From positions 18,678,097-18,742,096 of the forward strand of contig CM073324.1 in NCBI GenBank assembly GCA_037043015.1: a stretch of 64,000 bases of DNA, written 5' to 3'. A program made the position numbers and the translations under genes. Shown here one piece after another: positions 4,665 to 36,868 of the stretch. The notes beneath the pieces were generated by a model. That model worked only from the letters and a program-made list of their open reading frames with translations. It did not search any database and was not told the origin of the DNA. This DNA comes from Bryum argenteum. Its lineage: Eukaryota > Streptophyta > Bryopsida > Bryales > Bryaceae. Numbering within the stretch: the first letter of the stretch is position 1; each line of letters opens with the position of its first letter.

Positions 4665-4784
4665 ATGTGAGGCCGGGTGCCCAGCACAGAGCGAACTATT
4701 CTTTCGCCTTTTACTAAAGAATTCCGTGCGCTTGGGACACTCACCGGCATACCCCATTTTTTGGACTGCCCCTCACCGGGGCCC
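4665..4784 (+). ncRNA. U5 snRNA-like gene, copy A
   Basis: A 120-nt U5-like RNA. It has stem Ic (ATTCTTT/AAAGAAT) closing the invariant 11-nt loop I CGCCTTTTACT, then a CCATTTTTTGG Sm-type site (about 4754-4764) and a 3' hairpin CCCCTCACCGGGG. U5 loop I aligns exon ends in the spliceosome. This copy has an inserted T in the right arm of stem Ib (GCTTGGG) and a weak TATA box, so it may be inactive. Confidence 0.8.
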
Positions 4785-5203
4785 ATCAATAAGACTCCCA
4801 AACTGGACTATTGCAAAGGCGTTTTTGCTCCCCTTCCGCCCTCGTCGTCTGTCACTACTTGGCTTCAATGAAAACCTGAGCCCTTGTCGATCTGAAAAAC
4901 AAGGCAAAAGCATAGTATTACAATCATGCCCGATTCGTGTCTTCAAAGAGGATTATTTTATTTCGAAATCCACTGCTAGATTTCTTATACTTCATTTGTA
5001 CTTTTGTTGGATATCAACATGTTTGTGGAAATACCACAGCCAATCTGATCTTTTCTTTTAAATTTGAGATGACGATCTATTACTTTCATCAACTTGTCAT
5101 ATACGTGTGACATCATCACGGAAACTAAGCTTATTGGATGAGTATTGCATCAATACTGGTTATAATTGGTCCGAATGGCACCTGAATTTTGTGGTCTCGT
5201 TGG

Positions 5204-5824
5204 GGCAATGGTAAGCTTGGGGTATCACTTTTTGGACACACTAATTAGGTTATTTTTATTGAAAGCCTCCAAAGTTTGTCTAATTTAGTCATTTTAATCA
5301 AGTAAAAAGACCCTAAAATAGAAAATAAAATATCATGCACCTCACTAAAATCAAAGTATATATGCCTATAGATTTTCTTTTAGATTTTTTATTTTTTTTG
5401 GATCCATTCATAGATGAGGGAAAAAGTGTTGAATTTGGGGATTTGCAGGCATTATAGTGCACAATGAATTAATTTTTTTATTATAAAATAAATTATTTTG
5501 TATTCTATACAAGAAGATGTAGGTCATATTCAAAAATTATATTAAAATAAAAATGGTTGATATTCCATTTGCTTGATTCTATGGATTTTAGATTATTGGG
5601 ACATGACTTACTTTTTCAACTAAAAAATCAAATAAAATTACTTTAAAATATTTTTTTTAATTTCTAATTTTTTTTCTTGATACATTATAAGTATAGACAA
5701 CTAAAACCACATCTAATGAAGTCTTATTGTATTACAGTTTAAAAATGGATATGTTTGTCACACCAGCATAGAGTGCAATTGTTCATGGGACAACCTTTTT
5801 GGGTACCCCAACCAGACTATCACC
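5204..5824. mobile_element. Candidate MITE in a U5 spacer
   Basis: The spacer between U5 copies A and B matches the inverted spacer at 17,370-17,700, but about 620 bp of extra AT-rich DNA interrupts it. The empty site reads GGTCTCGTTGTGCTTGTAG. Here GTTG is repeated on both sides, giving a target duplication of about 4 bp. The ends GGGCAATGGTAAGCTTGGGG and the reverse complement of the right end, GGGTGATAGTCTGGTTGGGG, form an imperfect terminal inverted repeat. There is no coding capacity. The superfamily is not assignable with confidence. Confidence 0.7.
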
Positions 5825-6056
5825 CGTTGTGCTTGTAGCTTCTGCAAGATCCGGTTCAATTTGCACGTACTGGAGTGCAATTTCACTGCAAGATGTTGAA
5901 GGTGATGCAACGTGCAAGTTGAGATTGAGGTTCGCACACCAAGTCCTTCAGTTGGAGAGCCTGCGGATGAGCACGGAATTGTAACTGCCCCATGCAGATT
6001 GCAGCTTCAATCTCCCATGGCTGCTTATAATAACCACTGCACCTTCCCTAGGGAGG

Positions 6057-6761
6057 ATGTGAAGCAGGATGGTCAGCACAGAGTGAACTAATCTTTCGCC
6101 TTTTACTAAAGAATACCGTGCGTTGGGTTAACTCACCGGCATAAGGTCGAGGAACCCATAGTCGATAAGTTAAAGCGATTTGCATAGTAGAAGTTGTCTT
6201 ACTCATGGGGATAAATTTTTCTCAAGGAAATAAGGTTTAGGTAGAATGCACATTTTTCCAAATTTTTTTCTCAAAATTGAAATTACCACAAATTAAAAAG
6301 GTGAAAAGTTGATCCGGACTCGTTACTAATATGTAGCTTCACCTGTAACCGATAACTATGAGACTAGTTCACAAACACAAATTCACGAATTCCCGTGATG
6401 GAAACTGATGTAATTGAGCTAATCACATAACTAATAGTTGATACCGTCGTTCAGTAGAGGCCGGTCATGCTTAAAGCCGAGCACAAGGCTAACAATAACC
6501 AAGGAGTCCGAAGTTGGAAAACCAACACACCATGGCACCTAATTTTGCTGCTTAATTTAGTGCAGCCATTCAAATCCAGGAAGCCACCATGCACAATCAC
6601 AAAAAGTTGCCATGATTTTCAGTGTTTGCCAAAACCAAATGTCGACAATTGGTCAATCAGACCGTGGCAATTGGGGAGTCTACAACTTGGGCATGGGGAC
6701 TATATCGACTATGGGTTCCTCTACCTTACCCTTTTTTTTGGACTGCCCCTCACCGGGGCCC
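6057..6761 (+). pseudogene. U5 snRNA copy B, split by a MITE
   Basis: The 5' part (6057-6143) holds the stem arms, loop I CGCCTTTTACT and the right arm ending CCGGCATA. The 3' part (6727-6761) has the U-run and the 3' hairpin CCCCTCACCGGGG. A 583-bp element with TA target duplication lies between. Removing the element and one TA restores exactly 120 nt, the length of copies A and F. The stem arms have additional substitutions (GAAGCAGGATGGTCAGC). TATAATAA lies at about -32. The copy is interrupted before the Sm site, so it should not make a stable snRNA. Confidence 0.85.
6144..6726. mobile_element. 583-bp MITE with TA target duplication
   Basis: Terminal inverted repeats of 24 bp (left end 6144-6167, starting AGGTCGAGGAACCCATAGTC; right end 6703-6726) match at 23 of 24 positions. 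The flanking dinucleotide TA (6142-6143 and 6727-6728) is the target duplication. A TA duplication points to the Tc1/mariner superfamily, but the termini are not the classical Stowaway sequence. No transposase is encoded, so it would be non-autonomous. Confidence 0.9.
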
Positions 6762-7020
6762 ATCAATAAAACTCCCAAACTTGGACTAATCCAAAGGCAT
6801 TTTTGCTCCCCTTCCGCCCTCAACGTCTGTCATTTCTTGGCTTCAACTACTATGAATGCTCAATACAATAAGTGGAAGGCACCGGGTCATATTCGGACTG
6901 CAGATACTCATCATTCGGATTAAGAACTGATTACAATGGTTCTCTTCTACTAAACAACAGACACTACACAGGAGCAAGAGATCTACAGAAGGGCTGAATA
7001 GTTAATTATTCCAGGATCAT
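6762..7020 (+). repeat. Duplicate of PPR-gene downstream flank
   Basis: From CATCAATAAAACTCCCAAAC to near 7015 the sequence matches 16,385-16,640 and, in reverse complement, 21,715-21,975 just downstream of the PPR gene. The shared text includes TCGTCTGTCAT/TTCTTGGCTTCAACTAC-like and AAGAGATCTACAGAAGGG-like stretches. It contains no coding sequence. Confidence 0.8.
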
Positions 7021-7958
7021 CCAGATAATTTGTCTTCTTACAACTGTAGCTTTGTTTTTTCATCCATCTCTTACTCTTAAAGCGGAATTCTTTTCATCCA
7101 TGCCCTTTCGCAAGTGAAAGAACAAAAATCTAAAAGCAGTGAAATACTTTTATAAGTACAAATACATTGATATAAGCTTATATCAGTGTATTTGTACTTA
7201 TTTAGAGCAATTTCTTATTGATCACTTGCATGTATACATTGGAAATGGACATGAGCATGGTTAGGATCTGCTAGGCAGGATATTGTTTTGTGTAGCTCGA
7301 GCTAAGAGCTTCCGGGCGTGATTAAAGCGTGTCGGTTCGCTGTTCTAAGATCTCATTTTCTCGCTTGAAGGAGTGATATGTTTGATTTGTTAATCCGTAA
7401 TTGTAATTTCTGTTTGGAAATAAAGTTTCAAAACGTTATGGAATAAGTTTTTGAAAAAGCTTGAAAACGTTTTGGAATAAATTTATGAAAATCTTCATAT
7501 CGTTTCAAAACACAATGTAAATCACCTCAGAAGTACATCTTCACTTGCTTTGAGATATTGATTAGAAAAGTGATTAGAAACACGTCATTAATTTGTTTGT
7601 ACGTGTACAATCCTTGCATACAACTCCAAGTCAAGGGCTTTGTGCCTCAAAATTTTGTTTATAACTTAAATAATCACAATGTATTTTTACTCTGAAATGA
7701 TGAGGCTTTCAAAGTAGGTGCAATGCATTTCGAAAGTGTGTCACTCACTTCTTTAGAAATCTTGGAAATAGATAGTAAGTAGGTTGAGAATAGTGTGTCA
7801 AAACATAATTGAAAACATAATTGGGACAAAACGTTTGAGTAGTTTTGAAACGAACAAGAAATGTTTGTTAACGCGAGAATGGGATGGAACATAATGTTTG
7901 TGTACGTTTCGAAACAAACAAGAAACGTTTATTAACGCAAAAATGGTTAGATTACATC

Positions 7959-8201
7959 TATCCTCAATTCTGTTAAAATGGCGTTATTCCTATAAAGTGG
8001 TGCTTTTTGGTGTGCTTAAAATGAAAAAAGTAATGTTGGTTTTTGTCAAGTTTTGACACGATAGGGTAAATATTTCTAACCCCATTTCAAAAACAACTAT
8101 ATTTTTTGAACGGCCGTTCAGGGATATTGCCCTTTGACTATGTTTGAAGGTCAAAAACCATAAAAATGTGTGATATTATGGAAATTTTGGTAATATTACA
8201 G
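7959..8201. mobile_element. MITE left half (TTAAAATGGC family)
   Basis: Starts with the family left terminus CCTCAATTCTGTTAAAATGG and ends in GAAATTTTGGTAATATTACAG without a right terminus. The last 110 bp match 10,275-10,382, which belongs to a copy that has only the right terminus. Confidence 0.6.
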
Positions 8202-9813
8202 TACTTAGTAGAGATACTAAGTGGGGTGTTGAGTTACCCCTTCCAATTCCATATAAGTGCGTGAGGTTAGAAACTCCTATCGATAACCCTACTTGACGAA
8301 GGTTCTAAAAAATCTCCTTTGTTCTAAGAAGTTTTACCTCTTATAATTATTTATATGTTGCAAATTTGTTTAATTATCAAGATTCATTTCTTGTAATTTC
8401 AAGCCTTATACCTAGCCTTTTAGTTCTAAGAGTTGTTTGAAATTCTAAATGTAGGATCTTAGAGTTGAATTTAATTTATCGGTAATATTTTAATCATCTA
8501 CACTTGATTTGATTTTGAATATCACATCATAATATCTAAAATAGGGTAGATGTATGTTGTACAAAAGTTTTATTCAAGAGTTTGGATTATATAATACTAT
8601 AGGGGTCAATCACTACAAATTAGCCGAAGTTTAAAACTATTACAAAACAAGTACGACTTGGGCAAAAGGCCGTGTGCCGTAGTATGTTCAAGTTTCACCC
8701 ACGTGTGTACTACACACGCTCACACGCATTTTTTCGGGCATAAAATTGAGCATATTTCTCATGTTGTAATACTACAAATTGGATTCGATATGTAAGATTG
8801 AACCACAATCTTTTTGCTTTGCATTCGTCGCCGCCTATCTCGCTTTGGAGCCATCCTTCTCGCATTTGGTCATTTGTAGCCGCCTCTCTCGCTTTGTCGC
8901 TGCCTCTCTCGGTTTGTCGCCGCCTCTCTCGGTTTGTCGCCGCCTCTCTCGTTTGTCGCCGCTTCTCTCGCTATCTTTTTTCTTTGCACTTGTCGCCACC
9001 TCTCTCGCTTTGAGGCCATCCTTCTCGCATTTGGTCCCTTTCTCTTGCTTTGCATTCGTGATCACATTTCTCACCCCTAAGGCTGTCGCCCACGCATGTT
9101 TTCTTCGCTTTCTCTTTCTTACTGCATTTCTCGCTCGAAAGCCTTCCCTTTCCCTCAAAACCACTCCAATGAACCCTAAGTAAGTTTGTTTCTAGTCACC
9201 CAAATACCACAATAATCGTTATGTCAAATGTTGTAGTTACGTCTTGTCGACATATCATCGAGGGTAGGTCAAACAAACACTATGTTCACTCCAATAGGAT
9301 ATGCCACTTTTCTACTTTTTGTCATTGTGTTGTGCTAACATATTCTTGAGCCGTGAGTAGTTTAGATTCAACTTCGTTCTACTAAGCAATAACAACTGCA
9401 GAGTTTCTAGATAGCATTGGTGATGGCTGTTGTCTAATTGAAAAAATTGTTTTCTTTCTCAAGAACATTGGTGATTGCTCAAGCAAGTTCTAGAACATTG
9501 TTAGACTTTAGCAACATTTACACAAAAGCAACGTTTGTTTGTCTAGTTCCAAACCCTCTCTTTTCTCTATTTTCCTTCTTTTCCAGTAGTGGAGGACGTA
9601 GGCAAGATGACGGACGACCATAGCACCGACCTCCTCATGCATCTCCTCATGCATCTGGAGAAGGGAAGCAACCAACACCGATGTCGACGGCAAGCACATC
9701 AGCGCAACCTACAAAGAAGAAATGTAAAACAACAAAATTAGGTACTTAATTCTTGCGTCAACTAATCATTTAGTTACCATTGAAGTGCACTCAAGTATTC
9801 ATTATGTACATTA

Positions 9814-10073
9814 ATCCTCTATTCCGTTAAAATGGCGTTACATATGCCGCTAAAATGGCACACCTCAACTTTCTAAATTGCAGTTCAAGAACCATGTGAT
9901 ATAACAGAATTTGAAGGTGATATGTAGGAAATGAGTGACAATGTATATAAAGGAGTGGTATTATTTGAAAAATTGTGATATTACAAAATACACCATTCTA
10001 AGTGAGCAAGTTTGTAAGATTTGGTGTGAAAAAATGGCACATAGCATAGTGCCATTTTAAGGAAATTGAGGTA
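9814..10073. mobile_element. 260-bp MITE in the R2 intron, copy 2
   Basis: Terminal inverted repeats CCTCTATTCCGTTAAAATGG at the left and the complement of GCCATTTTAAGGAAATTGAG at the right enclose about 260 bp without coding capacity. R2 copy 1 shows the uninterrupted intron sequence GTACATTACTAAAATCC (about 4205-4221). The target site is TTA/TTTA-like. The same element sits at the same site in R2 copy 3. Confidence 0.85.
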
Positions 10074-12892: not shown

Positions 12893-13323
12893 TTTACTAA
12901 AATCCAGAACTTTTGTTGTCGATCTGCAGATCATGAGCTCCGAAACCAGGAGGGCGGACGAAACAATGAACTGCTGCATCGGTAGATAGATTCATGACGA
13001 GCTCGATTATGGCAGTTGCATCACGATGTCAACACACAAAAGCTCCACGTAGTTTCATTCGACTCTCCACATTCAGTTTGTGAATCGCCAACACCTGCTT
13101 TATAATCTCAGTCTTTGTTCTCAGCAGTAGTGGTTCAGTACTTTATTGCAAAATGTCGAAAGTGATGCAATGTCAGTGCTAGTTGAGGTTGGGAGTCGCA
13201 CACTAAGAGCTTCAGTTGTTGGAGAGCCTGCTGGTGAGCAGGCGATTGTAATTGCCCCATGCGCATTGCAGCTTCCATCTCCCCTGCCTGCTTACAATAA
13301 CCACCGCACCTTCATCACAGAGT

Positions 13324-13412
13324 ATGTGAAAGGGGTACTCAGCGCAGAGCGAACTATTCAGCGCAAACCGGGTACGCCCACCGGCATTCCCCATTTTCAG
13401 TCCATGCCATCA
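13324..13412 (+). pseudogene. U5 snRNA copy D, degenerate
   Basis: The upstream block (13,146-13,320) and the 5' arm are U5-like, but the loop I region is replaced (GAACTATTCAGCGCAAACC), the Sm run is broken (CCATTTTCAG) and the 3' hairpin is missing. A clear pseudogene. The upstream block reads TTACAATAACC where the better copies have TTATAAT. Confidence 0.85.
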
Positions 13413-13541
13413 ATTCAATGACGAAGTCGGACTGATCGATCTTACGGTCCCTTTCGACTATGGACTAAGAGCATTCCATCCATGATTAATTTTAAGAGCA
13501 TCATGGGGTGATCTGTAACATATTGCTGTCTTGATATAATT

Positions 13542-14601: not shown

Positions 14602-14723
14602 ATGTGAAGCCGGGTGCTCATCACAGAGCGAACTATTCTTTCGCCTTTTACTAAAGAGTACCGTGCGCTGGGCACACTTACCGGCATACCCCTTTTTTTT
14701 GGACTGCCCCCTCACCGGGGCCC
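14602..14723 (+). ncRNA. U5 snRNA-like gene, copy E
   Basis: Loop I CGCCTTTTACT and stem Ic are present (ATTCTTT/AAAGAGT, one G-U), along with the 3' hairpin (CCCCCTCACCGGGG). The Sm-type site reads CCTTTTTTTTGG, lacking the A that precedes the U-run in the other copies, which may weaken Sm binding. Left arm of stem Ib is GGGTGCTCATC rather than GGGTGCCCAGC, so two base pairs are weakened or lost. It may be an inactive variant. Confidence 0.75.
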
Positions 14724-14800: not shown

Positions 14801-15056
14801 GCCGGACACTAAATCCAATCCATGTTCCCCCTTGGAATTTCCAAATATGGAGGGAGGCTAATAAAAGGCTGCCCGGTATTTTTTTGTGTTTAAGGCCTTA
14901 AAATTCCAAGAACTGGCCCCCTAGGGCAAAATGGGGGTGCAGACCCCAAATTTCAAAAAAAAATCCAAAAAATGACCCTAAGGGGGTCAAAAATGGAAAA
15001 TAAAAAAACTGGGGCGCCCCCCAAGTGGGGAACATGGATTGGATTTAGTGAGCGGC
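14801..15056. mobile_element. 256-bp Mutator-like MITE
   Basis: A 9-bp target duplication ATGCTTATT flanks it (14,792-14,800 and 15,057-15,065). The termini are inverted repeats of about 35 bp; both start GCCG and share CACTAAATCCAATCCATGTT. A 9-bp duplication is diagnostic of Mutator-like elements. The interior is short and non-coding. It lies in the 3' spacer between U5 copy E and the orphan ORF copy 2, and the homologous spacers near 23,310 and 36,720 are empty. Confidence 0.93.
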
Positions 15057-15173
15057 ATGCTTATTTAGTGTGAATTTAGTGGATTTAAAGAGCATTGTTG
15101 GGGTGATCTTTAACATATTGTAGCATTACAAGTGCACCTCATCTGAAGTGTCTAGTTTGAGAGGCTACTAATC

Positions 15174-15593
15174 TTATCGTAACAATGTGTAAGAGCCCTT
15201 GTAGATAGCACATTTCAATCTGTTTCTGAATCCAATTATTGATGCAAAGAATTCTGCTTCCTTCCATCTCTCAACAAATAGCCTTTTACTTCTTGTCTTC
15301 ATCTTCTCGTCCACAACTGGGTGAGCAAATATTATATAAACTATAGTATCTTCCAACGTACATGGAATTGCATGACATAGTGAAAGGTCTTTCGGAAAGT
15401 CCTTATTCTCACAGTCATTTGTAGTTGAGAGAAGCAAGATATTGTCACCATTGGCATCATTTTCCACAGAGATTTCACATACTTGTAGGCATTGATCTAT
15501 GTTTGTATGATTGTGGAATAGAGCACATAGATCTTCATCATGTTTCTTGCATTCGGAATGGGAGTCTTCAATCAAGAGATAAGCCTTTACCAT
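15174..15593 (-). CDS. Orphan MVKAYL-family protein, copy 2
   Basis: An intact 139-codon ORF of the same unrecognised family, starting MVKAYLLIEDSHSECKKHD. It lacks the lysine/serine residues near KMKTFSK found in copy 1 (reads KMKTRSK, two residues shorter). It is divergent from U5 copy F; the intergenic region of about 670 bp is conserved with the other units. Confidence 0.6.
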   Translation of the reverse strand: MVKAYLLIEDSHSECKKHDEDLCALFHNHTNIDQCLQVCEISVENDANGDNILLLSTTNDCENKDFPKDLSLCHAIPCTLEDTIVYIIFAHPVVDEKMKTRSKRLFVERWKEAEFFASIIGFRNRLKCAIYKGSYTLLR

Positions 15594-16079
15594 TTTGACT
15601 TATTTTCCGAACTTGCTCAAATGGTGTACAGAGAGAGAGCAAACACAGTTCTAACCAAGGAGAGAAAACGGGGAAGTCCCCTCCCATTTAATCCTTCGCA
15701 AACAATACTTTTACTTTACATTTTACTTTACTTTTACTTTATCTTTACTTTTGCTTTTGCTGCACAGCAAGTGTTTCTAGAAAGACCTTCATTGGTTTAT
15801 TCTTTTACTTTTATATTAACTTTTGTTCGATGAAAAATGATGTCGATAATTTGCTTCTTTACTTTTACTTTTAACTATCATAATTCTGGGATGATGATTT
15901 GTTTCATTCACCAGATTGTCATATATTTTTGACATCATCACTCAGGAAAACTAAGCTTATTAGGACAAGTAAGCATATTGGATGAGTACTGCATCAATAC
16001 TGGTTATAATGGCATCTGAATTCTGTGTGTCTGGTTATGCTTGTGGCTTCTGCAAGTTTTAGTTCTATTTGCATGTACT

Positions 16080-16264
16080 GGAGTGCACTTTCAATGCAAA
16101 ATGTTGAAGGTAATGCAATATGCAAGTTGAGGTTGAGAGTGGCACACCAAGAGCTTCAGTTGGAGAGTCTGCTGGTGAGAATGCGATTGTAATTGCCCCA
16201 TGCTCATTGCACCTTCCATCTCCCCTGCCTGCTTATAATTATCACCGCACCTTCTCACAGGAGA
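16080..16264 (+). promoter_or_regulatory. U5 copy F promoter region
   Basis: The best-preserved example. TTATAATT (16,233-16,240) lies at -32 to -25 and TTGCCCCATGCTC (16,193-16,205) at about -72 to -60 relative to the inferred start 16,265. The spacing between the upstream element and TATA (about four helical turns centre to centre) resembles plant RNA polymerase II snRNA promoters. The element sequence is only loosely like the angiosperm one. Confidence 0.6.
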
Positions 16265-16384
16265 ATGTGATGCCGGGTGCCCAGCACAGAGCGAACTATT
16301 CTTTCGCCTTTTACTAAAGAATACCGTGCGCTGGGCACACTCACCGGCATACCCCATTTTTTGGACTACCTCTCACCGGGGCCC
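16265..16384 (+). ncRNA. U5 snRNA gene, copy F (best preserved)
   Basis: Inferred 120-nt U5. Stem Ia pairs ATGCCGG with CCGGCAT (7 bp), stem Ib pairs GTGCCCAGC with GCTGGGCAC (9 bp), internal loop 1 follows, stem Ic pairs ATTCTTT with AAAGAAT (7 bp), and loop I is the 11-nt CGCCTTTTACT. The Sm-type site is CCATTTTTTGG, and the 3' hairpin is ACCTCTCACCGGGG (first pairs weakened). U5 length in other eukaryotes is about 115-120 nt. The stem sequences differ from animal and angiosperm U5 but pair, which supports RNA function. It is followed directly by duplicated PPR downstream flank. Confidence 0.88.
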
Positions 16385-17134: not shown

Positions 17135-17246
17135 GGGCCCCTGGTGAGGAGCATTCCAAAAAATGGGGTATGCCGGTGGGTATACCCAGCGCACGGTATT
17201 CTTTAGTAAAAGGCGAAAGAACAGTTCGCTCTGTGCTGAGCACCCG
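17135..17246 (-). pseudogene. U5 snRNA copy G, 5'-deleted
   Basis: Minus-strand U5 with loop I, Sm run and 3' hairpin. The 5' end is fused at CACCC|GCAGGCTCTCCAAC to sequence normally about 120 bp upstream, so the TATA box and RNA 5' arm start are deleted. The right arm reads CCCAGCGCACGG on the + strand as in intact copies. Confidence 0.85.
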
Positions 17247-17369
17247 CAGGCTCTCCAACTGAAGCACTTGGTGTGCGAATTTCAATCTCAACTTGCACAT
17301 TGCATCACCTTCAACATCTTGCAATGAAATTGCATTCCAATACATGCAAATTGAACTAAATCTCGCAGA

Positions 17370-17784
17370 AGCTACAAGCACAACGAGACCACAAAATTCA
17401 GGTGCCATTTGGACCAATTATAACCGGTATTGATGCAATACTCATCCAATAAGCTCAGTTTCCGTGATGATGTCACACGTATATGACAAGTTGATGAAAG
17501 TAATAGATCGTCATCTCAAATTTAACAGAAAAGATCAGATTGGCTGTGGTAATTCCACAAACATGTTGATATCCAACAAAATTAAAAATGAAGTATAAGA
17601 AATCTAGCAGTGGATTTCGAAATAAAATGATCTTTGAAGACACGAATCGGGCATGTATGCTTTTTGCCTTGTTTTTTAGATCGACACGGGCTCAGGTATT
17701 CGTTGAAGCGAAGTAATGACAGTCGAAGTGAGCGGAGGTGGGCAGAGTGCCATTGCATAAGTCCGGTTTGGGAGTTGCATTGAT
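17370..17784 (-). repeat. Inverted U5 spacer (no orphan ORF)
   Basis: Reverse complement of 4785-5202, the spacer between U5 copies A and B; for example CACGAATCGGGCATG (17,641) mirrors CATGCCCGATTCGTG (4926). It shows the uninterrupted target of the 5204-5824 insertion. This spacer type has no MVKAYL ORF, so two different spacer classes exist in the U5 family. Confidence 0.85.
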
Positions 17785-17904
17785 GGGCCCCGGAGAGGGA
17801 CAGTCCAAAAAATGGGGTATGCCGGTGATTGTACCCAGCGCACGGTATTCTTTAGTAAAAGGCGAAAGAATAGTTCGCTCTGTGCTGAGCACCCGGCTTC
17901 ACGT
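17785..17904 (-). ncRNA. U5 snRNA-like gene, copy H
   Basis: A 120-nt minus-strand copy with loop I CGCCTTTTACT, perfect stem Ic, CCATTTTTTGG Sm-type site and a 3' hairpin GTCCCTCTCCGGGG. The 5' arm is GCCGGGTGCTCAGCACAG, and the right arm GCTGGGTACAATCACCGGC pairs with wobble. GCTTATAATAA (complement at 17,928-17,938) sits at about -30. It looks potentially functional and lies about 1.1 kb upstream of the PPR gene, on the opposite strand. Confidence 0.82.
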
Positions 17905-18967: not shown

Positions 18968-21628
18968 ATGAGTGGAATGAGCGGCCTTGCATGGCCGTCG
19001 TCGTGCAGGGATCTTAGCCTCTCAAGCCTCGCACAGAGAAAAGGAACAGGGGGATTCTCCTTTCGGGTTAGCGCGACATTGCGGGTGAAGGACACGGATT
19101 CGGCAAGCAAAGTAGTTTCGGAGAAAGATGGGCAAGCGACGAAGGTATCGGAGGATTTGGGGAGGGCGATGCGGCAAGCGCAGTTCAGCGGGCACGTGAA
19201 GCTGCGGAGCCACAGGAAGGAAGCGCCGAATGACATTCTGCACAACTTGGCGAAGACAGTCGCGATTCGGGTGGCCTCGGAGCATCTGGCGACCGATGAG
19301 GACGTGATGCGCGTGGTGCGTGAAAGCGGCCTGCGCGTCGAGGTTCGCTCCATGAATATGGTCGTCTGGCAGCTCGGGCAAATGCAGAATTGCCAGGCCG
19401 CTACTAGAGCGTTTCGTGCCTTCCGAAGCGCTGGTGTCGAACCCAATGCCTATGTGTGTACCACTCTCATCGCCGCTCTCGGGTACGTCTCCCTTGCCAT
19501 TGTCTCAATGCCTTGATTTCTCTCACTAGAATTCTCAAACAAGGCTGAATCATCGGTTGCTCAAAGTCACGTATGAGCCAAAATGGAGACTTCTGCACAT
19601 TCCTGAAATTTGATTGCTGGCAATGTAGAGTCGAACTGCGGAATATCTCGTTTTTCAGGTGTAAATCAATTACAGTAGGGTTGTCGCTCAGTATGCATTT
19701 TAACTCCACAAAGTACCAATACTTTGAGGCAAGAAGAATCGCGTTCTGTAAACAAATCTCCTCTCCTTTCACTAATGAAATCATCATTAAGAACCCACAC
19801 ATGTCGTGACTACCAAGGTTATCAGATTTATAAGGATCGCAAAAAAATGTGCAGATCCGGGCGTAAGTTGCCACAAGCGCTGAAGCTCTTCAAGTGGATG
19901 AAAAACAGAGGCATTGAACGGCCCATTTACACCTTCAATGCTCTCATGGTCGCATGCGGCAGGGTAAGGCTACTCCTGCTTTCACTCTTCCAACTACATG
20001 CTTTGAATTCCTCGCTTCGAGTTATTCATAAAGAGAATCTATTGCAGTGCGCTGCAGGCGATGTAGCCGTGGAGCTTTTCGAGGAGATGGTAACCCTAGG
20101 TCTAGCTCCAGACAGGATTACCTTCACAGGACTAATCTCAGCAACGACAGCAGCAGGGAAGTGGGAGCTAGCACAGAGCTTCATCGACAAGATGCAAGCA
20201 CGGGGCTTCTCAATCGGTGTAAACGAGTACACCGAGATGCAGTGGGCATGTGCACGAGCTCGCAAACCTCGCGAAGCATACGGACTCTTCCAAGTGATGC
20301 AAGAGCAAGGCTTCGAGCTCACCCTGGAGAATTACAATGCCCTTCTGTGCGCGTACGAGAGAAGCGCACAATGGGAAGACGCAATCCGAACGTTCGTCTG
20401 GATACGAGACAAGGGTCTTACTCCAGACGTCATCTCCTGGAGCTCACTCATCAGCGCGTGTGCAAATGCTGGCCAACCCGAGCGAGCACTCGAAGTGCTA
20501 GAGAAGATGAAAGCTAGCAATGTGACTCCGAATGTAGTTTCCTGGTGTGGGCTTCTCAAAGCTTATCAGAAGACCGGCGATTGGGAGAAAGCCGAGGAGG
20601 CTTTTCACGCTATGCTTGACTCCGGGTGCCCTCCAAACGAGGTCCGCTCCTTTCGAAACCTCTTTATCGTCCTTTCCATGTTTCCAGGTTGTGAGGAGTG
20701 ATGGTGTTTTTGTGCAGAGCAGGTGGCCTGGTGCTCACTGATAAGCGCATACGAGAAGGGTCGTCAGTGGAAGAAGGTCGTTTACACTGTTGACAAGCTG
20801 GAAGAGCTGGGGATGAAGCTGGACGTGGTAGCGTGGAGCACCATGATCAGTGCTTTGGCGAAAGCGGGACAATGGGAGCTTGCAGAGGAGAAGTTTGAGC
20901 AGATGAAGCGGAGTGGTTGTCAACCGAATATTATCACGTTCTCCTCCCTTACGAAGGCTTATGGTGACGCGGGGTTGTGGGAGAAAGCTGAAAATACGTT
21001 TAAGTCGATGCTCCGAACTGGCATCAGGTTCGTGTCTCTCACCACCCTATGATTCTGCCTTTCGCAAACAAGAACTTTTCACAAAGATTTCAATCTAGTT
21101 GAGTGCAGATCCTTGGTCAATACCCTCCCAATACTTGCTCCGAAACTGATATAGTTCTTACCTAGTTACTACTTCTCAAAGTGAACATTGCAATAGTTCC
21201 TATCTTGTATGGATGAAACTCTATACTAGTTTCCAACTCGGTCATTATCTCAGAGTGTATGCTTATGCCTTTTGCTGCTGCTGGTTTCCTGCAGGCCAAA
21301 CGCGCAGGCCTGCTGCACACTGCTTCGTGCATACGCCAAAGGAAGAGAATTAGACAAGGTTATAAACTTCTTCGAAACCATGGAGCCACAGTTCGGAGTA
21401 AAACCAGATAAGTACGCGTACGCAGCGGTGTTTTGGGCGTGCTGGACGTGTGGAGAGTGGCAACGCGCCGTGGCTTACATCGAAAGAATGGAAGTGGCTG
21501 GCTGCGCTCCCGACAGTGTCATTTACACCACTCTTATCAACATGTACGAAGCTAATGGCCAGGTCGAGGAAGCCATGGAAATTCTGGAGAGAATGGGAAA
21601 CTCAGGACAGCGTCTCTTGTTACAGTAA
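18968..21628 (+). CDS. P-class pentatricopeptide repeat protein
   Basis: Five exons join in frame: 18,968-19,482, 19,855-19,963, 20,048-20,641, 20,723-21,027 and 21,295-21,628, giving 618 residues. All four introns are GT-AG and the junctions restore PPR text (ALG|SGRKLPQ, CGR|CAAGD, PNE|VAWCSL, GI|RPNAQ). The first 50 residues are Ser/Arg-rich with an RVSA motif, consistent with a plastid or mitochondrial transit peptide. From about residue 130 onward there are about a dozen 35-residue PPR motifs (for example TPDVISWSSLISACANAGQP). No E, DYW or SMR domain follows, so it is P-class; such proteins bind organellar RNA. Its target is unknown. Several PPR start positions vary, so motif counts are approximate. 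The last exon is duplicated at 16.7-17.0 kb. Confidence 0.93.
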
Positions 21629-21977
21629 TAATTCTTTTCTTTTTTTTTGTTCCAGGAATAGATGAGATTAGGCATTTGATAGGAAACTTGTAACTATACA
21701 AATTTTTGCATTCACGGATGGGCTGGTCCTCGATTGTGTATTCAACCCTTCTGTAAATCTCTTGCTCCTGTGTATTGCGCTGTTGTTTAGTAGAAGAAAA
21801 TTATCCTAATCAGTTCCCAATCCGAATGATGGGTACCTGCACTCAAAATACAACCTGGTGCCTTCCACAAGTTGCATTCAGCATTCGTTGTAGATGATGC
21901 CAAGAAATGACAGACGATGAGGGCGGAAGGGGAGCAACTCTGCCTTGGGATCAGTCCAGTTTGGGAGTTTTACTGAT

Positions 21978-22097
21978 GGGCCCCGATGAGGGGCAGTCCA
22001 AAAAATGGGGCATGCCGGTGAGTGTGCCCAGCGCACGGTACTCTTTAGTAAAAGGCGAAAGAATAGTTCGCTCTGAGCTGAGCGCCCGGTTTCACAT
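21978..22097 (-). ncRNA. U5 snRNA-like gene, copy I
   Basis: A 120-nt copy with intact loop I, CCATTTTTTGG Sm-type site and 3' hairpin CCCCTCATCGGGG. Stem Ib has GCGCTCAGC against GCTGGGCAC (one mismatch, one wobble), and stem Ic has one G-U pair. A weak TATA (complement of GTATTGTAAGC, 22,121-22,131) lies at about -30. It sits 350 bp beyond the PPR stop on the opposite strand and is divergent from orphan ORF copy 3. Confidence 0.8.
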
Positions 22098-22410
22098 TCC
22101 TCTTCGTGAAGATGCGGTGGGTATTGTAAGCAGGCAGAGGAGATGGAAGGGGCAATACGCATGGGGCAATTGCAATTGCCTGCTCACCAGCAGACTTTCC
22201 AACTGAAGCTCTTGGTGTGCGACTCTCAACCTCAGCTTGCACGTTGCATCACCTTCAACATCTTGCACTGAAAGTGCACTCCAGTACATGCAAATCGAAC
22301 ACAATCTTGCAGAAGCCACAAGCATAACCAGACACAGAATTCAGATGCCATTATAACCAGTATTGATGCAATTCTCATCCAATGTGCTTAGTTGTCCTGA
22401 TAAGCTTAGT

Positions 22411-23380
22411 TTTCCTGAGTGATGATGTGAAAAACATATGACAATCTGGTGAAAGAAACAAATCATCATCCTAGAATTATGATAGTTAAAAGTAAAAGTA
22501 AAGAAGCATATTATCGACATCATTTGTCATTAAACAAAAGTAAATATAAAAGTAAAAGAATAAACTAATGAAGGTCTTTCTAAAAACACTTGTTATGCAG
22601 CAAAAGTAAAGGTAAAGTAAAAGTAAAGTAAAAGTAAAGTAAAATAATATTTAAGTAGGAAGGTTTAAATGGGAGGGGACTTCCCCACTATCTTTCTTCG
22701 TTTTGAAATATGTTTCCACTCTCTGTAGAGCATTTGAGCTAGCTTAGAAAAGTAAATCAAAATGGTGAAGGCGTATCTCTTTATTGAAGGCTCCCATTTT
22801 GAATGCAAGAAACATGATGCAGGTCTATTCTACAAATTTTCAAACATAGATGAATGCCTTCAAGTATGTGAAGTCTCTGTGGAAAATGATGCTAATGGTG
22901 ATAATATCTTGCTTCTCTCAACTGCAAATGACTATGAGAATAAGGACTTTCCCAAAGACCTTTCACTATGTCGTGCAATTCCATGTACGTTGGACGATAC
23001 CACAGTTTATTTGATATTTTCTCACCCAGCCGCGGACCAGAAGATGAATACGGTTTCTAAAAGTAAAAGGCTATTTGTTGAGAGATGGAGGAAAGCAAAA
23101 TACTTTGCACCATTAATTTAGATTCGGAAAGAGATTGAAACATGCTATTCAGAAGGGCTCTTACACATTGTAACGATGAGATCATTAGCCTCTCAAAGTA
23201 GACAATTTAGGTCATTTTGGAATTGGCCGTATGAGGTGCACTTGTAATGCTACAATATGTAAGATATCACCCCAACGATGCTCTTCAAATTCACTAAATT
23301 CATACCAAATAAGCATGGATGGAATGCTCATGGTCTGTAAAGGGACCGTAAGATCGATTAGTCCAATTTCGGAGTTGTAT
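22411..23380 (+). repeat. U5/orphan-ORF unit, inverted copy
   Basis: Together with U5 copies I and J this is the reverse complement of the unit tandemly present at 13.4-16.4 kb. The left edge TTTTCCTGAGTGATGATGTG also forms the left edge of the unit at 35,821. It holds orphan ORF copy 3. Confidence 0.85.
22762..23121 (+). pseudogene. Orphan MVKAYL-family ORF, copy 3, truncated
   Basis: 119 codons starting MVKAYLFIEGSHFECKKHD. Three residues near the N-terminus (CALFHN-type) are deleted. A 2-nt deletion after FAPLI (near 23,118) creates an early stop; the homologous C-terminal segment continues out of frame to about 23,170. Probably a recently disabled member. Confidence 0.75.
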
Positions 23381-23384
23381 AGAT

Positions 23385-23505
23385 GGGCCCCTGTGAGGGG
23401 GCAGTCCAAAAAATGGGGTATGCCGGTGAGTGTGCCAAGCGCACGGTATTCTTTAGTAAAAGGCGAAAGAACAGTTCGCACTGTGCCGAGCACCCGCCTA
23501 CACAC
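23385..23505 (-). ncRNA. U5 snRNA-like gene, copy J
   Basis: Loop I, stem Ic (ATTCTTT against AAAGAAC-type, with a change in the + strand CGAAAGAACAG), Sm-type site and 3' hairpin CCCCCTCACAGGGG are present. The 5' end region (complement of CACCCGCCTACACACCGGCC) differs from other copies, leaving stem Ia uncertain. TATA (complement of GTTATAAGC-type, about 23,540-23,548) lies a little farther upstream than in copy F. Function is doubtful. Confidence 0.72.
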
Positions 23506-30753: not shown

Positions 30754-32388
30754 CATGGATCACTCTAGTGCTAAAAAGAACCTTGTTTTTGTGGATGAAA
30801 TGGATATTGAGACACCCGTCGAAAGTTTGAAAAGACACACAAATGAGAAAACCAACAAGGCTAAGAAAAAAAGAACAACCAATGATCTAAGCTCTAACTT
30901 GTACTCTACTAATCCAGAGGCGGAGGAATTTAGATTTAGGATGGGATTTCATGTCTTGGAGACTCTTGCCAAGGAGGAGGGATTGAAGGAACTTGCATGG
31001 AGGAGCCCATCAAAGATATGATTACTAGAGGTTTCTTGGAAAAAGAAGCAAAAGAGACTAGAGGAGCAAGAATGGCTTATCCAAGAATCCCTCAAGCGTT
31101 GTATCCTAGCACATGGAGTGGAGGTGAAGGGCAACATTACAATGTCACCCAACTCCCCCAAGATATCAACATCAACAAGGAAACGGGTTCGGCTTTTGAT
31201 TTCCATGTTGCAATTCATTTTGAACAACCCAAAGTTCAATTGTTGCATGATCAAGTAAAAGAATTGGTGTTGTTGAGGCTTAAAGCCATGGACATATCAT
31301 TAGGAGAGAACCTCATAGACCCCATCAACATAGTTTGCTTAAGTGTCAAGCAAGGTGGTAGGAAAGGTGTTTGGGCCGGCATCATTAAATTACACTTGTT
31401 AAAACCGGAAGTGGATGCAATTGCTTTGTTGAAAGGTCTTAGACCCTTCATTCTTGTTATTGATGGGGTGCATATGATTGGGAAAGTTTGCAAAAGCTTT
31501 CACAATATATCCACCAATACTAATTTAAGTGTGAAAATTAAGAGTGATTCTTTGAAGGGATTGATGGGAGCACAAGTTTTCAAGGAGGTGCTTTGGAGTA
31601 GCTTCAAGAGAGGCCATATCTTGGAGATCATGGGAGTCCAAAAAGACAAAGAGGAGAGCTTTGCCTTTTTGGTGGCAACAACACCAACACAAGCTTTGAA
31701 GATCCAAGAATTTCAAATCACTCTAGGGAGTGAGATTGTGGAAGTAAAGAAGGCGATTAGAGGAGAGAAGATGACGGAGGAGTCCAAAGCTAAGAAGGAT
31801 GCCTTGTCTTTGACACTCTCCCACCTTCCAATCCTCATGAAAGTAGAGGAGACAAAGGAAGCAATCTTGAAAGTAATGGGCTCTAACAATGTGTTGTCTA
31901 TTTGGTTTCACAAAGAGGATGGAACAAGGCACAATGGTAGTGCCAATGTGCATTGTTCCAATCCAATTGTCTATAGACAATTTGTGAAAAAAACCCTCCA
32001 AATTGGAGGGTTTTTTGTGGAGTTTACTCCACATAGGAGGAGCTTGGAAGGTGTGGAGCCTCCAACCTTGGAGCAAGTCAAGAGCTTTGGCTTCGAAGAT
32101 GTGAATGTTGCAATGGTAAACACGATTGAGACATTCAAGATGCTTGAGAGCAAACCTCTTATCAAGAAGGAAATTGTGAGTTTCATGGAGGAGGTGGTGG
32201 AGGAGAGCAACAAGAAGATGCGAAAGGAGACTAAAGAATTGATGGAAGAGAAGAATGATGAGATGAGACAACAAATAAATTCTATTCAAGAGACCCTTCA
32301 AATGACTCTCTCAACCATTCAACAAATCATGAAGACCAAATCTCCACTTTTGATTGAAAGTCAAAAAATGTGGATTGATGGAAGATGA
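30754..32388 (+). CDS. Coiled-coil ORF1/gag-like protein, frame-broken
   Basis: Two overlapping ORFs. The first runs from ATG 30,754 (MDHSSAKKNLVFVDEMD) to a stop at 31,021. The second, in another frame, from 30,997 to 32,388, has 463 codons. They overlap by 25 nt, so the protein is either two ORFs or one ORF of about 540 codons with a frameshift. The N-terminus is Lys-rich (KKRTTND). The centre is a mixed alpha/beta-looking region, and the last 80 residues are a heptad-like Glu/Lys/Met-rich coiled coil (MRKETKELMEEKNDEMRQQI). This resembles the trimerising ORF1 proteins of non-LTR elements in general design only. No zinc knuckle is visible. Its base composition differs from the A+C-rich LINE that follows, so it may belong to a different element. 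Confidence 0.5.
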
Positions 32389-32579
32389 AAGGGAAGTACT
32401 TATAAACTTATATGGTAAAAGTAGATTCTACATTACCCGTAGATATAGGGTATACAGTATAGTCACATATATAAGTATTTTGTAGTATTTATAGTAGAAT
32501 ATGCATGGTATACCTCCATATGTATGGTTTTTGAATACGTATACTTTCTAGTATATTTATATACTAAATATACTCCTAC

Positions 32580-32689
32580 AAATACACACATATTTATATG
32601 CATACGCATACGATTACGATTACAAATACAAATACAAATATAAATACAAATAAAATACAAATATAAGTAACGTACAAGTAAACAAACAA

Positions 32690-32732
<43 letters not shown>

Positions 32733-32739
32733 TACATAT

Positions 32740-32774
<35 letters not shown>

Positions 32775-32785
32775 TAGACATAGAC

Positions 32786-32816
<31 letters not shown>

Positions 32817-32822
32817 TACAAA
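32580..32822. repeat. (CACATA)n and AT/AC microsatellite tract
   Basis: A hexanucleotide tract CACATA with interspersed TACAAA and ATAGAC variants, densest at 32,690-32,820. The Val-Tyr and Met-Cys repeat ORFs on the minus strand come from this tract and are not genes. It separates the coiled-coil ORF from the LINE. Confidence 0.95.
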
Positions 32823-33118
32823 ATCATAAATACAAATATTTTTGTACTTGAGCTTCTTGGGAACCCCAAGCTCATACTATGGCTACTAAGGAAGCTCCAG
32901 TATATACTTGGGCTACTTGGGGATAACACATTAAATACTGTAAAACAACAAGAACACAAATCTATACATAACACCAAAAACAAACCTATCTCCCCCACAA
33001 ACCAAATGGAGCTCGGCCTCCCGGCCTCGCCAAAAAATTAATACACCAAAACACACCCCATCTCATAATTAATACAACAAAAACCAACCCAACAAAACAA
33101 GATAAATACACCAAACAA

Positions 33119-34450
33119 ATGGAAAATCCCAAGATACACAAAACAAATTGGTCCCCCTCTCAAACACATACAACCTATACCCAAACACAATCAAAACTTG
33201 AAAATCCTAAAATGCCCAATCCTAAAACAAACACCATATCACATCTTGCCAGACCAAAATCCAAAACTCCCAAAGGCAAATTCATCCCGAACTATTTATT
33301 CCTCCTACTCTGCGGTGACGTCGAACCAAACCCAGGCCCCATACCAAATATCCTACACACCCACCCCACCAAACATAGACGACACAACAACACATACTTC
33401 ATTCCCAGCACAATCATATTATATCCAGAATACAAACCCCTCGCAAAAATATTCTCCTCCACAATCCAAACCACACACCCCGACCACCCAACAAGTATAA
33501 ACAAATACCCATGTCTAACACGTTACATACATAACCACCCCCAATACCCACCGCCAAATTTTCTATACACACTAATTACCACCATTGGTCCTCTACTAAC
33601 AATGTGTGAACAACATATATTATCAAACCCAACTCCTGAATGGACTACATCATTATCTAACAAACTTTCCCGTTTACCAAACATCCCCTCCCGTCACTTA
33701 AATAATCCTCACCGCTACACTAAATTTTTAGAAACACACCAACACAATATCACACCCTCTCGCACGATACACAATGAATTATATAATTATATCACAAACA
33801 TAAACAACAATGCAAACCTACAAACATTAATGGTTGAATTCCCATGCATACCAAAAGAACTACTAATCGAAGCCTTAAAATGTAAAACACACATTCCCAA
33901 GTACTCACACCCACCACCACTTCCGCCCACTCCCCCTCTTCAACCCCAACCTCAAATTACTACATACCAAAGCACACTTATGACTACATGGAATGCAGCT
34001 TCACTCAATACTGCACTTCCCAACATCCACCAGCTCGCGGATAACCTTCCCGCCATCATTACCATACAAGAAACAAAACTCACTGCAAATAAATCCACAA
34101 AACACATACAACGCATGCTTCCACAATATAAACCCATCTTCAACAATACACACGCCTTCACTAGATGTATACAACAAAGATTAAGATACACACCCACTAG
34201 AGGCGGCCTCCTCACCCTAATCCACTACAAATATGCCTCCCCAGCAATATCACCAAGATCCCAACACCAGCAAACATCTCACCATGTTTACAAATCATAC
34301 ATATTGCAAAAAACCACTCATAACATGGATTCTTATTCATCTCTACATGTCGTCCCATCCCGAAGATATAGGACTAATCCCCTCTATTCAGCAAATAATT
34401 ACCACCCAAATATAAACACATTCAAATCACACCCATATTCTTTGTGGTGA
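33119..34450 (+). CDS. LINE ORF: 2A motif plus APE endonuclease N-part
   Basis: 443 codons. Residues about 59-74 read LFLLLCGDVEPNPGP, which matches the 2A ribosome-skipping consensus D(V/I)ExNPGP with the preceding hydrophobic/Gly residues. 2A motifs at the N-terminus of APE-type non-LTR ORFs are known from trypanosomes and several animals. A long linker rich in Pro/Thr/His/Asn follows. From about residue 288 an APE endonuclease starts (MTTWNAASLN, catalytic Asn; IITIQETKL, catalytic Glu). After about residue 395 the frame is lost; the rest of the domain continues in another frame from about 34,440. The start chosen is the first ATG after the leader; upstream ORF text is absent. Confidence 0.85.
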   Translation: MENPKIHKTNWSPSQTHTTYTQTQSKLENPKMPNPKTNTISHLARPKSKTPKGKFIPNYLFLLLCGDVEPNPGPIPNILHTHPTKHRRHNNTYFIPSTIILYPEYKPLAKIFSSTIQTTHPDHPTSINKYPCLTRYIHNHPQYPPPNFLYTLITTIGPLLTMCEQHILSNPTPEWTTSLSNKLSRLPNIPSRHLNNPHRYTKFLETHQHNITPSRTIHNELYNYITNINNNANLQTLMVEFPCIPKELLIEALKCKTHIPKYSHPPPLPPTPPLQPQPQITTYQSTLMTTWNAASLNTALPNIHQLADNLPAIITIQETKLTANKSTKHIQRMLPQYKPIFNNTHAFTRCIQQRLRYTPTRGGLLTLIHYKYASPAISPRSQHQQTSHHVYKSYILQKTTHNMDSYSSLHVVPSRRYRTNPLYSANNYHPNINTFKSHPYSLW

Positions 34451-34790
34451 TTTTAACAGGGACATCGCACTCATAGGCAGACAAAACGAACATATCGCGA
34501 CACCACCACAAGACGAAGACATTCAATGGCACACCTTCACCGATAGTCTCAATCTAAACTACATTCCTACAAACAGCCCATTCTCCAGACAAGGCGAATA
34601 CAACTATACAAAATTGAGCCTTATTGACGGTTACTACATAAATTCCACCAATCACCATCTTTTCATCTCCACTACCAACCACACACAAAACCTTAACTCA
34701 GACCACTCGCCAGTAAATCTTCACATACCTCAACAAACACTAATAGCCCCCCTCCACCAATATCAATTAAAACAACCCCTCGTATTCTAA
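34437..34790 (+). pseudogene. LINE endonuclease C-part, out of frame
   Basis: In a frame shifted from the previous ORF, it encodes CGDFNRD (catalytic Asp and Asn of the APE fold) and, about 85 residues later, NSDHSPV (the SDH motif with the catalytic His), ending at a TAA near 34,790. The order and spacing are typical of LINE endonucleases, so the domain was complete before the frameshift between 34,250 and 34,437. Confidence 0.85.
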
Positions 34791-35080
34791 ACCCCATTTA
34801 AGGCTCCGATCCATTCTCTGAACAAAACGCACTCTCTATTAACAACCTTACGACTATTTTAAAACAAGAACAACTCACTCGCACTGAATAGACCACTGCA
34901 TGTACACAATTAGACCTCCTCATAAACTGCACCATAGAAACACTGCTAAAAACTTGTACCCCCCCTATCCCCACTCTCACACCACAAACTAACCATCAGA
35001 GTGGATTTCTACCAAGAAAATCACAAAAAGACTGGAAGAGACACCTCTCTACATACCACTTAATTCGCAAAACAATCTAC

Positions 35081-35494
35081 ATGGCCAACAACAACGACAC
35101 TTGGAGAACACACCCAATAATACAAGAAACACAACAACACACACATGCAAGCATACCACCCCCCCCTCCAGACACAGATGACACTAAAAAAGATTGGCTA
35201 AACACACTTGCAGATTTAACCAAAACCGCAAACAAAAAAGCGAGGGCCATTACCACGAAATACACCCGCCAATCCATCAAGAATGCCATAACAAAATATA
35301 GACGACTTTATAACACTAGCCCCAAGAAAATAAACAATCGTGTCTTCAAAAACCTAGAAACCCCACCACTAGACTGCATCACCACTCACAACAATGAAAT
35401 CTTGACTAGCCCAGACAACATAGCCCAAGAAATCTTCTTGCAGCAATCCATCACCAACCGCCCAACCATCCCAACATGCTATTTTCAACCATAA
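35081..35494 (+). pseudogene. LINE linker between endonuclease and RT
   Basis: A 137-codon open segment (MANNNDTWRTHPIIQETQ...) between the endonuclease and reverse transcriptase, rich in Lys/Thr/Asn, ending QQSITNRPTIP. Similar Lys-rich linkers precede RT in APE-type LINEs. The RT start follows in another frame after a stop, so the original ORF is broken here. Confidence 0.65.
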
Positions 35495-36158
35495 CATCTC
35501 CAAAACTGCACATGTGTAGTCCGCCAATACCCGTGGCATGATTTAGATGGATTTATCCTTGAAAAGAGAGGTACTCCAGAAACTCCGCTACACACATACT
35601 ACAATCGGGAAACTTTTGACATCTGCTTAAAAAATCTCTCGCAAAACAAAGCTCCCGGCCCAGATAAAATCCCTAACTCCATTCTCAAAAATATGCTTGG
35701 CTCATTCTACACCCTTCCACACCTTTTCTTCTCCCACTGCTATAAACAAAAACAAATACCTGCATCTTGGAAAACCAGCCTTACTATACTTCTCTATAAG
35801 AAAGGTGACCCCTCACAGTTTTCCTGAGTGATGATGTCAAAAACATATGACAATGTGGTGAAAGAAACAAATCATCATCCCAGAATTATGATAGTTAAAA
35901 GTAAAAGTAAAGAAGCAAATTATCGACATCATGTGTCATTAAACAAAAGTAAAAGTAAAGGTTAAGAACAAACCAATGAAGGTCTTTCTAGAAACACTTG
36001 TTATGCAAAAAAAGTAAAAGTAAAGTAAAAGTAAGGTAAAATATTATTTAAGTAGGAAGGTTTAAATGGGAGGGGAATTCTCCGCTTTCTCTCTTTGGTT
36101 AGAATTGTGTTTGCTCTCTCTGTACACCATTTGAGTAAGCTTGGAAACATAAGTCAAA

Positions 36159-36581
36159 ATGGTGAAGGCTTACCTCTTGATTGAAGATTCCCATTTCGAA
36201 TCCAAGAAACATGATGGAGATCTATGTGCTCTATTCCACAACTATTTAAACATAGATCAATGCCTTCAAGTATGTGAAGTCTCTGTGGAAAGTGATGCCA
36301 ATGGTGACAATATCTTGCTTCTCTCAACTACAAATGACTATGAGAATAAGGACTTTCCGAAAGACCTTTCACTATGTCGTGCAATTCCATGGACGTTGGA
36401 CGATACCACAGTCTATTTAATATTTGCTCACCCGGTTGCGGACCAAAAGATGAAGGCATTTTCTAGAAGTAAGATGCTATTTGTTGAGAAATGGAAGAAA
36501 GCAAAATTTGCACTAATAACTGGATTCGGAAACAAATTGAAACGTACTATCTACAAGGGCTCTTACACCTCGTTACCATGA
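36159..36581 (+). CDS. Orphan MVKAYL-family protein, copy 4
   Basis: An intact 140-codon ORF (MVKAYLLIEDSHFESKKHD ... YKGSYTSLP) of the same unrecognised family. The first Cys of the CKKHD motif is Ser here, and the PKDLSLCRAIP and VYLIFAHPVA segments are conserved. The upstream TTTAAATGGGAGGGG block and TTACTTT-type repeats (complement AAAGTAA) are shared by all copies. Confidence 0.6.
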   Translation: MVKAYLLIEDSHFESKKHDGDLCALFHNYLNIDQCLQVCEVSVESDANGDNILLLSTTNDYENKDFPKDLSLCRAIPWTLDDTTVYLIFAHPVADQKMKAFSRSKMLFVEKWKKAKFALITGFGNKLKRTIYKGSYTSLP

Positions 36582-36802
36582 GATCATTAGCCTCTCAAAC
36601 TAGACAATTTAGGTCATTCTGGAATGGGCCCCATGAGGTGCACTTGTAATGCTATAATAAGTTTTAGATCACCCCATTGATGCTCTCTAAATCCACTAAA
36701 TTCATACCAAATAAGCATGGATGGAATGCTGATGGAATGCTCTTGGTCCATAGTGTAAAGGGACTCAAACCATGGTGTTGAGGATCCAATGATCGAGTAG
36801 TC

Positions 36803-36868
36803 CGCCCAGCATTCTTTAGTATTAGGCGAAAGAATAGTGCGCTCTGTGCTGAGCACCCGGCTTCTCAA
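36803..36868 (-). pseudogene. U5 snRNA copy K, degenerate
   Basis: Loop I is altered (CGCCTAATACT on the minus strand) and the right arm, Sm-type site and 3' hairpin are lost. A TATA-like GTTATTGTAAGC lies at 36,890-36,901. Non-functional. Confidence 0.85.

Follow-up and report, generated by a model that had tools for sequence, protein, structure and literature searches.

A cluster of U5 small nuclear RNA genes and damaged copies, some predicted to be transcribed, in the moss Bryum argenteum

U5 copies in the window

The window analysed here is a 64,000-nt stretch of the nuclear genome of Bryum argenteum (contig CM073324.1, positions 18,678,097–18,742,096) and carries a dispersed cluster of copies of the gene for U5 small nuclear RNA (snRNA). 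A cluster of U5 genes and pseudogenes had been proposed in a sequence-only reading, for which a search with the Rfam U5 covariance model RF00020 (cmscan, both strands of the window, curated cut-off of 40 bits) was set beforehand as the refutation test. The loci did not score at background. Eight exceeded the cut-off with 44.8–90.3 bits, four per strand, and the cluster was confirmed. On the plus strand, the matches correspond to copies A (4671–4784, 76.3 bits), B (6063–6147, 44.8 bits), E (14608–14722, 83.7 bits) and F (16271–16384, 88.1 bits); on the minus strand, to copies G (17135–17249, 80.6 bits), H (17783–17898, 90.3 bits, the top score of the window), I (21978–22091, 85.3 bits) and J (23385–23499, 76.6 bits).

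The same reading counted eleven U5 loci or remnants. Beyond the eight, copy K gave a sub-threshold match (36745–36863, minus strand, 27.9 bits, E 0.016), and the model found nothing up to E 10 for copy D (13324) and the locus at 2086. Homology of these last two to the U5 unit was detected by blastn in their flanks: 13140–13359 is 84% identical to the unit of copy F, and 2059–2178 is 80% identical to 16084–16203 in that same unit. Both are thus relics of the U5 unit. All eleven loci belong together by homology, but only eight are U5 by the covariance model.

The loop sequence was, as claimed, exact in most copies. The 15-mer CGCCTTTTACTAAAG occurs eight times in the window, once per above-cut-off copy. 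With up to three mismatches there were 11 matches, compared to a mean of 2.0 in shuffled sequences, none of 100 shuffles reaching 11. We take GCCUUUUAC to be the universal U5 loop I. This loop is exact in the eight window copies and sits on a paired stem, as judged by helix 3 of the family alignment (97.8% of cells paired). The window also contains 12 open reading frames (ORFs) of at least 150 aa, one of which (4495–5061) overlaps an above-cut-off U5 copy.

State of the individual copies

Promoter, gene and Sm-type site are all kept in five copies: A (4665–4784), E (14602–14722) and F (16265–16384) on the plus strand, and H (17785–17904) and I (21978–22097) on the minus strand. Each carries an upstream sequence element (USE) at −68 and a TATA box at −31. 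The Sm-type site is ATTTTTTG in A, F, H, I and also in J, and TTTTTTTTG in E, which has a U run of eight. Stem I of A contains mismatches in the alignment. The 3′ hairpins of A and E to J fold at −3.7 to −9.8 kcal/mol, that of F being the weak one at −3.7; they were folded one by one, as the MAFFT alignment was out of register in parts of this hairpin.

The other six loci are damaged. Copy B (plus strand) is a split pseudogene, in which a 583-bp insert (6144–6726) follows base 87 and separates the 5′ piece (6057–6143) from a 3′ piece carrying a U run and the 3′ hairpin (6727–6761). The insert has 24-bp terminal inverted repeats, agreeing at 23 of 24 positions, and TA on either side; terminal inverted repeats with flanking TA typically indicate DNA elements that are small and non-autonomous. 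Among the family loci compared, a single partial relative was found (73% over 285 bases, in locus L057). The insert would be an element resembling miniature inverted-repeat transposable elements, with a TA target of the Tc1/mariner type. Copy D (13324–13443, plus strand) retains USE at −68 and TATA at −31 and has lost loop I and more. Copy G (17135–17254, minus strand) has a good gene body and a deleted promoter, neither TATA nor upstream element being left and an upstream repeat abutting the gene directly. In copy J (23385–23505, minus strand), the gene body is present and the spacing between element and TATA is normal; additional bases between TATA and gene place the TATA at −40, 9 bp too far upstream. 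Copy K (36803–36868, minus strand) is truncated, its U5 likeness stopping within stem I, and its loop I carries two changes. Finally, the locus at 2086 is a promoter or upstream relic of the unit (2059–2178, plus strand) without a U5 gene.

Other elements of the sequence-only reading stood in part. An Sm-type site and 3′ hairpin had been described for most copies; the site was found in A, E, F, H, I and J, whereas B, D and K showed none within their 120 nt. The TATA box announced at −30 has its first base at −31 in copies A, B, D, E, F, H, I and K, but is displaced in J and missing in G. The fixed length of 120 nt did not hold, as the stretch separating the U run from the 3′ end contains additional bases in E and J.

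The 5′ end ATGTGA is common to A, B, D, E, F and I, and window copies mostly share their promoter subtype too. The eleven loci divide into five plausible genes (A, E, F, H, I) and six relics or copies with damage (B, D, G, J, K and 2086). As far as can be judged from sequence, the window probably holds five usable genes.

A shared promoter element with tight TATA spacing

The U5, U2 and U6 genes of this genome share an upstream element that reads roughly ATCCCATACGTNTTG, and a CCCAT-type site occupies about the same place before 21 of 22 U1 genes. Copies with identical flanks were counted once (58 of 61 U5). The element scored above 3 in 57/58 U5, 13/13 U2 and 19/19 U6 upstream regions, copy G being the only U5 without it. 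At a score above 8 it was present in 86 of 90 of these regions against 34 of 1800 shuffles, with a matrix trained on the same sequences. The promoter-class check found both an element in the −70 region and a TATA box near −30.

The distance from the CCC of the element to the TATA is 37 bp in window copies A, B, D, E, F, H, I and J. It was also 37 bp in 37 of 50 U5 regions (36 in eight, 38 in three, 35 and 30 once each), 36–41 bp in 11 U2 regions and 33 bp in 16 of 18 U6 regions (35 in two). Regions with a weak or misplaced element or a weak TATA (8/58 U5, 2/13 U2 and 1/19 U6) were left out. U1 genes had 37 bp in 19 of 21 cases (33 and 32 once each), by a different rule, to whose TATA list TTCAAA and TACAAA had been added once the sequences had been viewed, and by which 1 of 22 U1 had no site. 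For U3, the spacing read by eye was 33 bp at loci L062, L063 and L064 and 37 bp at L061, the four being close paralogues. All these counts include many related copies and the events are not independent. Those for U5, U2 and U6 supersede the counts of a looser, noisier TATA rule (37 bp in 33 U5; U6 split between 33, 35 and 20–25).

Duplication of the U5 unit

The duplicated unit exceeds the gene. For copy F, it includes ~1.2 kb of upstream sequence and 0.6 kb of downstream sequence, as judged by blastn. The segment 15056–16960, comprising the spacer upstream of F (15056–16028, plus strand), copy F and its downstream flank, recurs inverted at 21400–23317 (minus strand), where it contains copy I, with 87% identity over 1940 aligned bases. 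Segments related to the spacer near 13.5–14.5, 22.3–23.3 and 35.8–36.7 kb show that it also lies upstream of E and beside K.

When a 921-base spacer query was compared with the 258.8-Mb genome and 40 of 56 candidates were scored, 104 matches were obtained. Five fell in the window, four of them long (including the query itself) and one short; the other 99 were a ~50-base simple repeat. All long matches among the scored candidates are therefore in this window. The downstream flank of F matched the cluster at four sites, the flank's own among them, and elsewhere a single fragment on contig 3 (C3). In a tree of promoter plus gene from 61 copies, seven of the eight window copies form one clade (support 99/98), which adjoins copies at 17.71 and 18.19 Mb of contig C5.

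The number of copies, their presence on both strands and the degeneracy of several could suggest retroposed U5 pseudogenes, or a U5-derived short interspersed nuclear element (SINE), spread by reverse transcription. However, promoters, spacers and 3′ flanks were duplicated together with the gene, and long spacer matches were restricted to the window. In addition, no poly-A tail was evident in the flanks viewed, tails and target-site duplications not having been searched for systematically. We regard retroposition as extremely improbable. A unit longer than its gene, lying amid other repeats, could also suggest that U5 is cargo of a larger transposable element. This reading too is very improbable, if by a hair less so: among the candidates scored, the spacer and downstream-flank searches returned the cluster itself, a simple repeat and the C3 fragment, and flanks of U5 loci elsewhere differ by eye, the promoter element excepted. 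The retroposition, SINE and cargo readings were set aside after these flank searches.

Since the long spacer matches and all but one of the downstream-flank matches lie in the window, the cluster points to local duplication of DNA rather than to retroposition or a mobile unit. The U5 unit (spacer, promoter, gene and 3′ flank) would have been duplicated at the DNA level, in tandem for D-E-F, as an inverted segment for J-I, and further for A, B, G, H and K. Several copies would have decayed afterwards; this order of events is a reconstruction.

Elsewhere in the genome, we noted pairs of U5 copies with identical promoter and gene, in opposite orientation and 3–18 kb apart, at C2:27183861/27188912, C2:27206563/27224699, C5:17703334/17706803 and C10:9898791/9915095. 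These may be either recent inverted duplications or products of gene conversion.

The U5 family and the functional state of the window copies

The genome contains 61 exact loop sites, all above the U5 cut-off. Seven further above-cut-off matches without the exact loop pattern were found in the fetched flanks, at L006 (position 164), L033 (2607), L035 (3007, reaching the end of the locus), L043 (2184), L054 (236) and L058 (10 and 2779). The window cluster is thus one of several in a large family of at least 68 U5 loci, pseudogenes included. Among the best candidates scored, the same genome has at least 43 U2 and at least 24 U6 matches above cut-off. A set of U2-like matches, 11 of exactly 119 bases (57.1–64.3 bits) and one of 118 bases (55.4 bits), on contigs C2, C3, C4, C7, C9 and C10, stands apart from the full-length U2 genes and is perhaps a shortened U2-derived repeat.

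The structure is well kept across the family. In an alignment of 56 of the 57 distinct rows obtained from the 61 copies (B being left out), standard pairs fill 96.1% of 1512 pair cells, against 36.0–45.0% in six slid controls. Cells changed on both sides, for example from C-G to U-A in stem I and the 3′ hairpin, numbered 19, compared to 4.4 in shuffles and 3–8 in slid controls. Loop I is invariant across the family, within the 15-mer by construction because copies were chosen by it.

We consider it very probable that the window holds a local U5 snRNA gene cluster of a green-plant nuclear genome, formed by duplication of the unit at the DNA level and subsequent decay, with five copies predicted to be transcribed. 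The sequences, structures, promoter elements, duplications and damage on which this explanation is built were observed directly. From them we infer that A, E, F, H and I would be transcribed by RNA polymerase II from the plant-type upstream element and TATA box. The transcripts would be U5 RNAs of ~120 nt, bound by Sm proteins and assembled into U5 ribonucleoproteins in which loop I holds the exon ends, and the window copies would provide a share of the U5 supply.

Several observations weigh against this explanation. Copy G is not part of the window clade, probably owing to the loss of its promoter. Six pairs of the family alignment are changed on both sides, no more than in several slid controls (3–6), and the covariation shuffles ignore the relatedness of the copies. 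Between F and I, the pair with the longest shared flanks, differences amount to 10/116 in the gene, 31/240 in the promoter region, 117/912 in the spacer and 43/566 downstream. Conservation of the gene hardly exceeds that of its surroundings, and selection on the window copies is therefore not demonstrated. Finally, H ranks 13th and F 23rd by score among 47 U5 loci scored, so that other loci may supply most U5.

These last points, together with damage in six of the eleven loci, could indicate that the whole cluster is a graveyard, duplicated and now silent, with U5 supplied from other loci. Against this, the upstream element, TATA, 37-bp spacing and a foldable 3′ hairpin are kept in A, E, F, H and I. 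Moreover, when the 15 pairs of six copies were pooled, changes were fewest in the gene (0.118, compared to 0.190 in the promoter, 0.246 upstream and 0.284 downstream), although the global alignments behind these values are crude and exaggerate the changes in E and J. We therefore judge an entirely silent cluster unlikely, yet far more credible than retroposition or cargo.

Linkage to U1 and U3 and a possible spacing code

We surveyed ~1.5 kb on each side of the U5 loci, so that all numbers given for linkage are minimum values. Outside the window there are 53 U5 loci; at 22 of them a U1 lies 334–843 bp upstream on the same strand, and at two more a U1 is nearby in another arrangement. At four, all in the 27.70–27.75 Mb region of C2, a match to the Plant_U3 family lies ~700 bp away in divergent orientation. 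The other 25 have neither U1 nor U3 above cut-off in the stretch read. At 18.185–18.190 Mb of C5, four U5 and three U1 form an alternating array.

In the window, no U1 was found in the Rfam scan or with a 14-gene U1 profile used with filters off (best E 2), and no divergent U3 was found at the U5 loci. When three C5 loci were compared with the window, the longest match in the flanks (74% over 290 bases) was to a changed-loop U5 copy in the C5 array. On this basis, the window may derive from a U1-U5 neighbourhood as an offshoot with U5 alone.

In plants, U6 and U3 are polymerase III genes, and U1, U2 and U5 are polymerase II genes. We tentatively propose, while leaning slightly towards doubt, that in this plant lineage the choice between the two polymerases for snRNA genes is encoded by ~4 bp of element-TATA spacing, not even half the helical turn given for plants, and that U5 belongs to U1-U5 and U3-U5 units, with the window cluster as a U5-only offshoot. 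The literature titles listed, drawn from outside most subscription journals, included none announcing a moss U5 cluster or such a spacing.

Two copies depart from the spacing of their class. The U3 copy at L061 (2260–2440 and upstream) has four extra bases that make the spacing 37 instead of 33, and the U1 copy at L039 (771–929 and upstream) has 33 instead of 37. If the proposal is true, both would be natural tests of the spacing code.

Other features of the window and genome

A 443-aa ORF (33119–34450, plus strand) contains the motif GDVEPNPGP, which we take to be 2A-like, followed by a stretch that presumably resembles the endonuclease start of a retrotransposon lacking long terminal repeats. 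Just upstream, a 463-aa ORF (30997–32388, plus strand) is possibly the first ORF of the same element. Neither has a Pfam match at E 0.01. Pfam also identified a pentatricopeptide-repeat protein (19724–20701, plus strand) and a RING-H2 zinc-finger protein (60099–60974, plus strand), both ordinary for a plant. Elsewhere in the genome, weak matches to the chlorophyll-binding family are grouped at 8.1–8.4 and 14.73–14.76 Mb of C5, 25.06–25.09 Mb of C2 and 19.6 Mb of C3, a pattern that we would expect of ELIP-type genes. Such genes are often expanded in desiccation-tolerant plants. An Lhcb-like protein encoded in this genome had its best matches in PDB chains 9vfj, 8htu and 7xqp, of which 8htu and 7xqp come from the moss Physcomitrium.

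Comparison with known systems

The copies share with the Rfam U5 family (RF00020) loop I, stem I, the internal loop, the Sm-type site and the 3′ hairpin. Unlike that model, this genome holds many sequence variants, and window copies mostly share a 5′ end of their own.

In Arabidopsis, U5 genes likewise form a multigene family whose members have an upstream element and a TATA box, with 14 copies reported (PMC545797), compared to at least 68 loci here. The same paper reports a U5 tandem duplication, one U2-U5 cluster and seven U1-U4 clusters, whereas in the moss U1 is a frequent neighbour of U5 and U3 an occasional one. In Euglena gracilis, several U5 genes are each linked to a U3 snoRNA gene, and the authors in 2009 were aware of no U3-U5 linkage in other organisms (PMC2784804). 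That linkage is convergent, whereas the moss linkage is divergent and found at the four loci on C2, none in the window.

Plant snRNA promoters combine the USE, RTCCCACATCG, with a TATA box, and a review describes polymerase II and III types, the element of the latter (U6, U3) lying one helical turn closer to the TATA (PMC9845283). The promoters analysed here likewise have a conserved element in the −70 region and a TATA near −30. Their ATCCCATACGTNTTG-type element resembles the USE in its TCCCAYA core and differs in the remainder, and the polymerase III-type spacing is shorter by only ~4 bp (33 versus 37), not by a helical turn. This tight 37/33-bp spacing could serve to probe the way in which land plants read polymerase choice.

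Taken together, the cluster itself looks ordinary, whereas the promoters of the family and its pairing with U1 and U3 look unusual. The survey adds the case of a plant with 68 or more U5 loci in its genome, of which many have a U1 partner and a few a U3 partner, and within one 35-kb stretch an essential RNA gene family is caught duplicating and decaying, at several stages.

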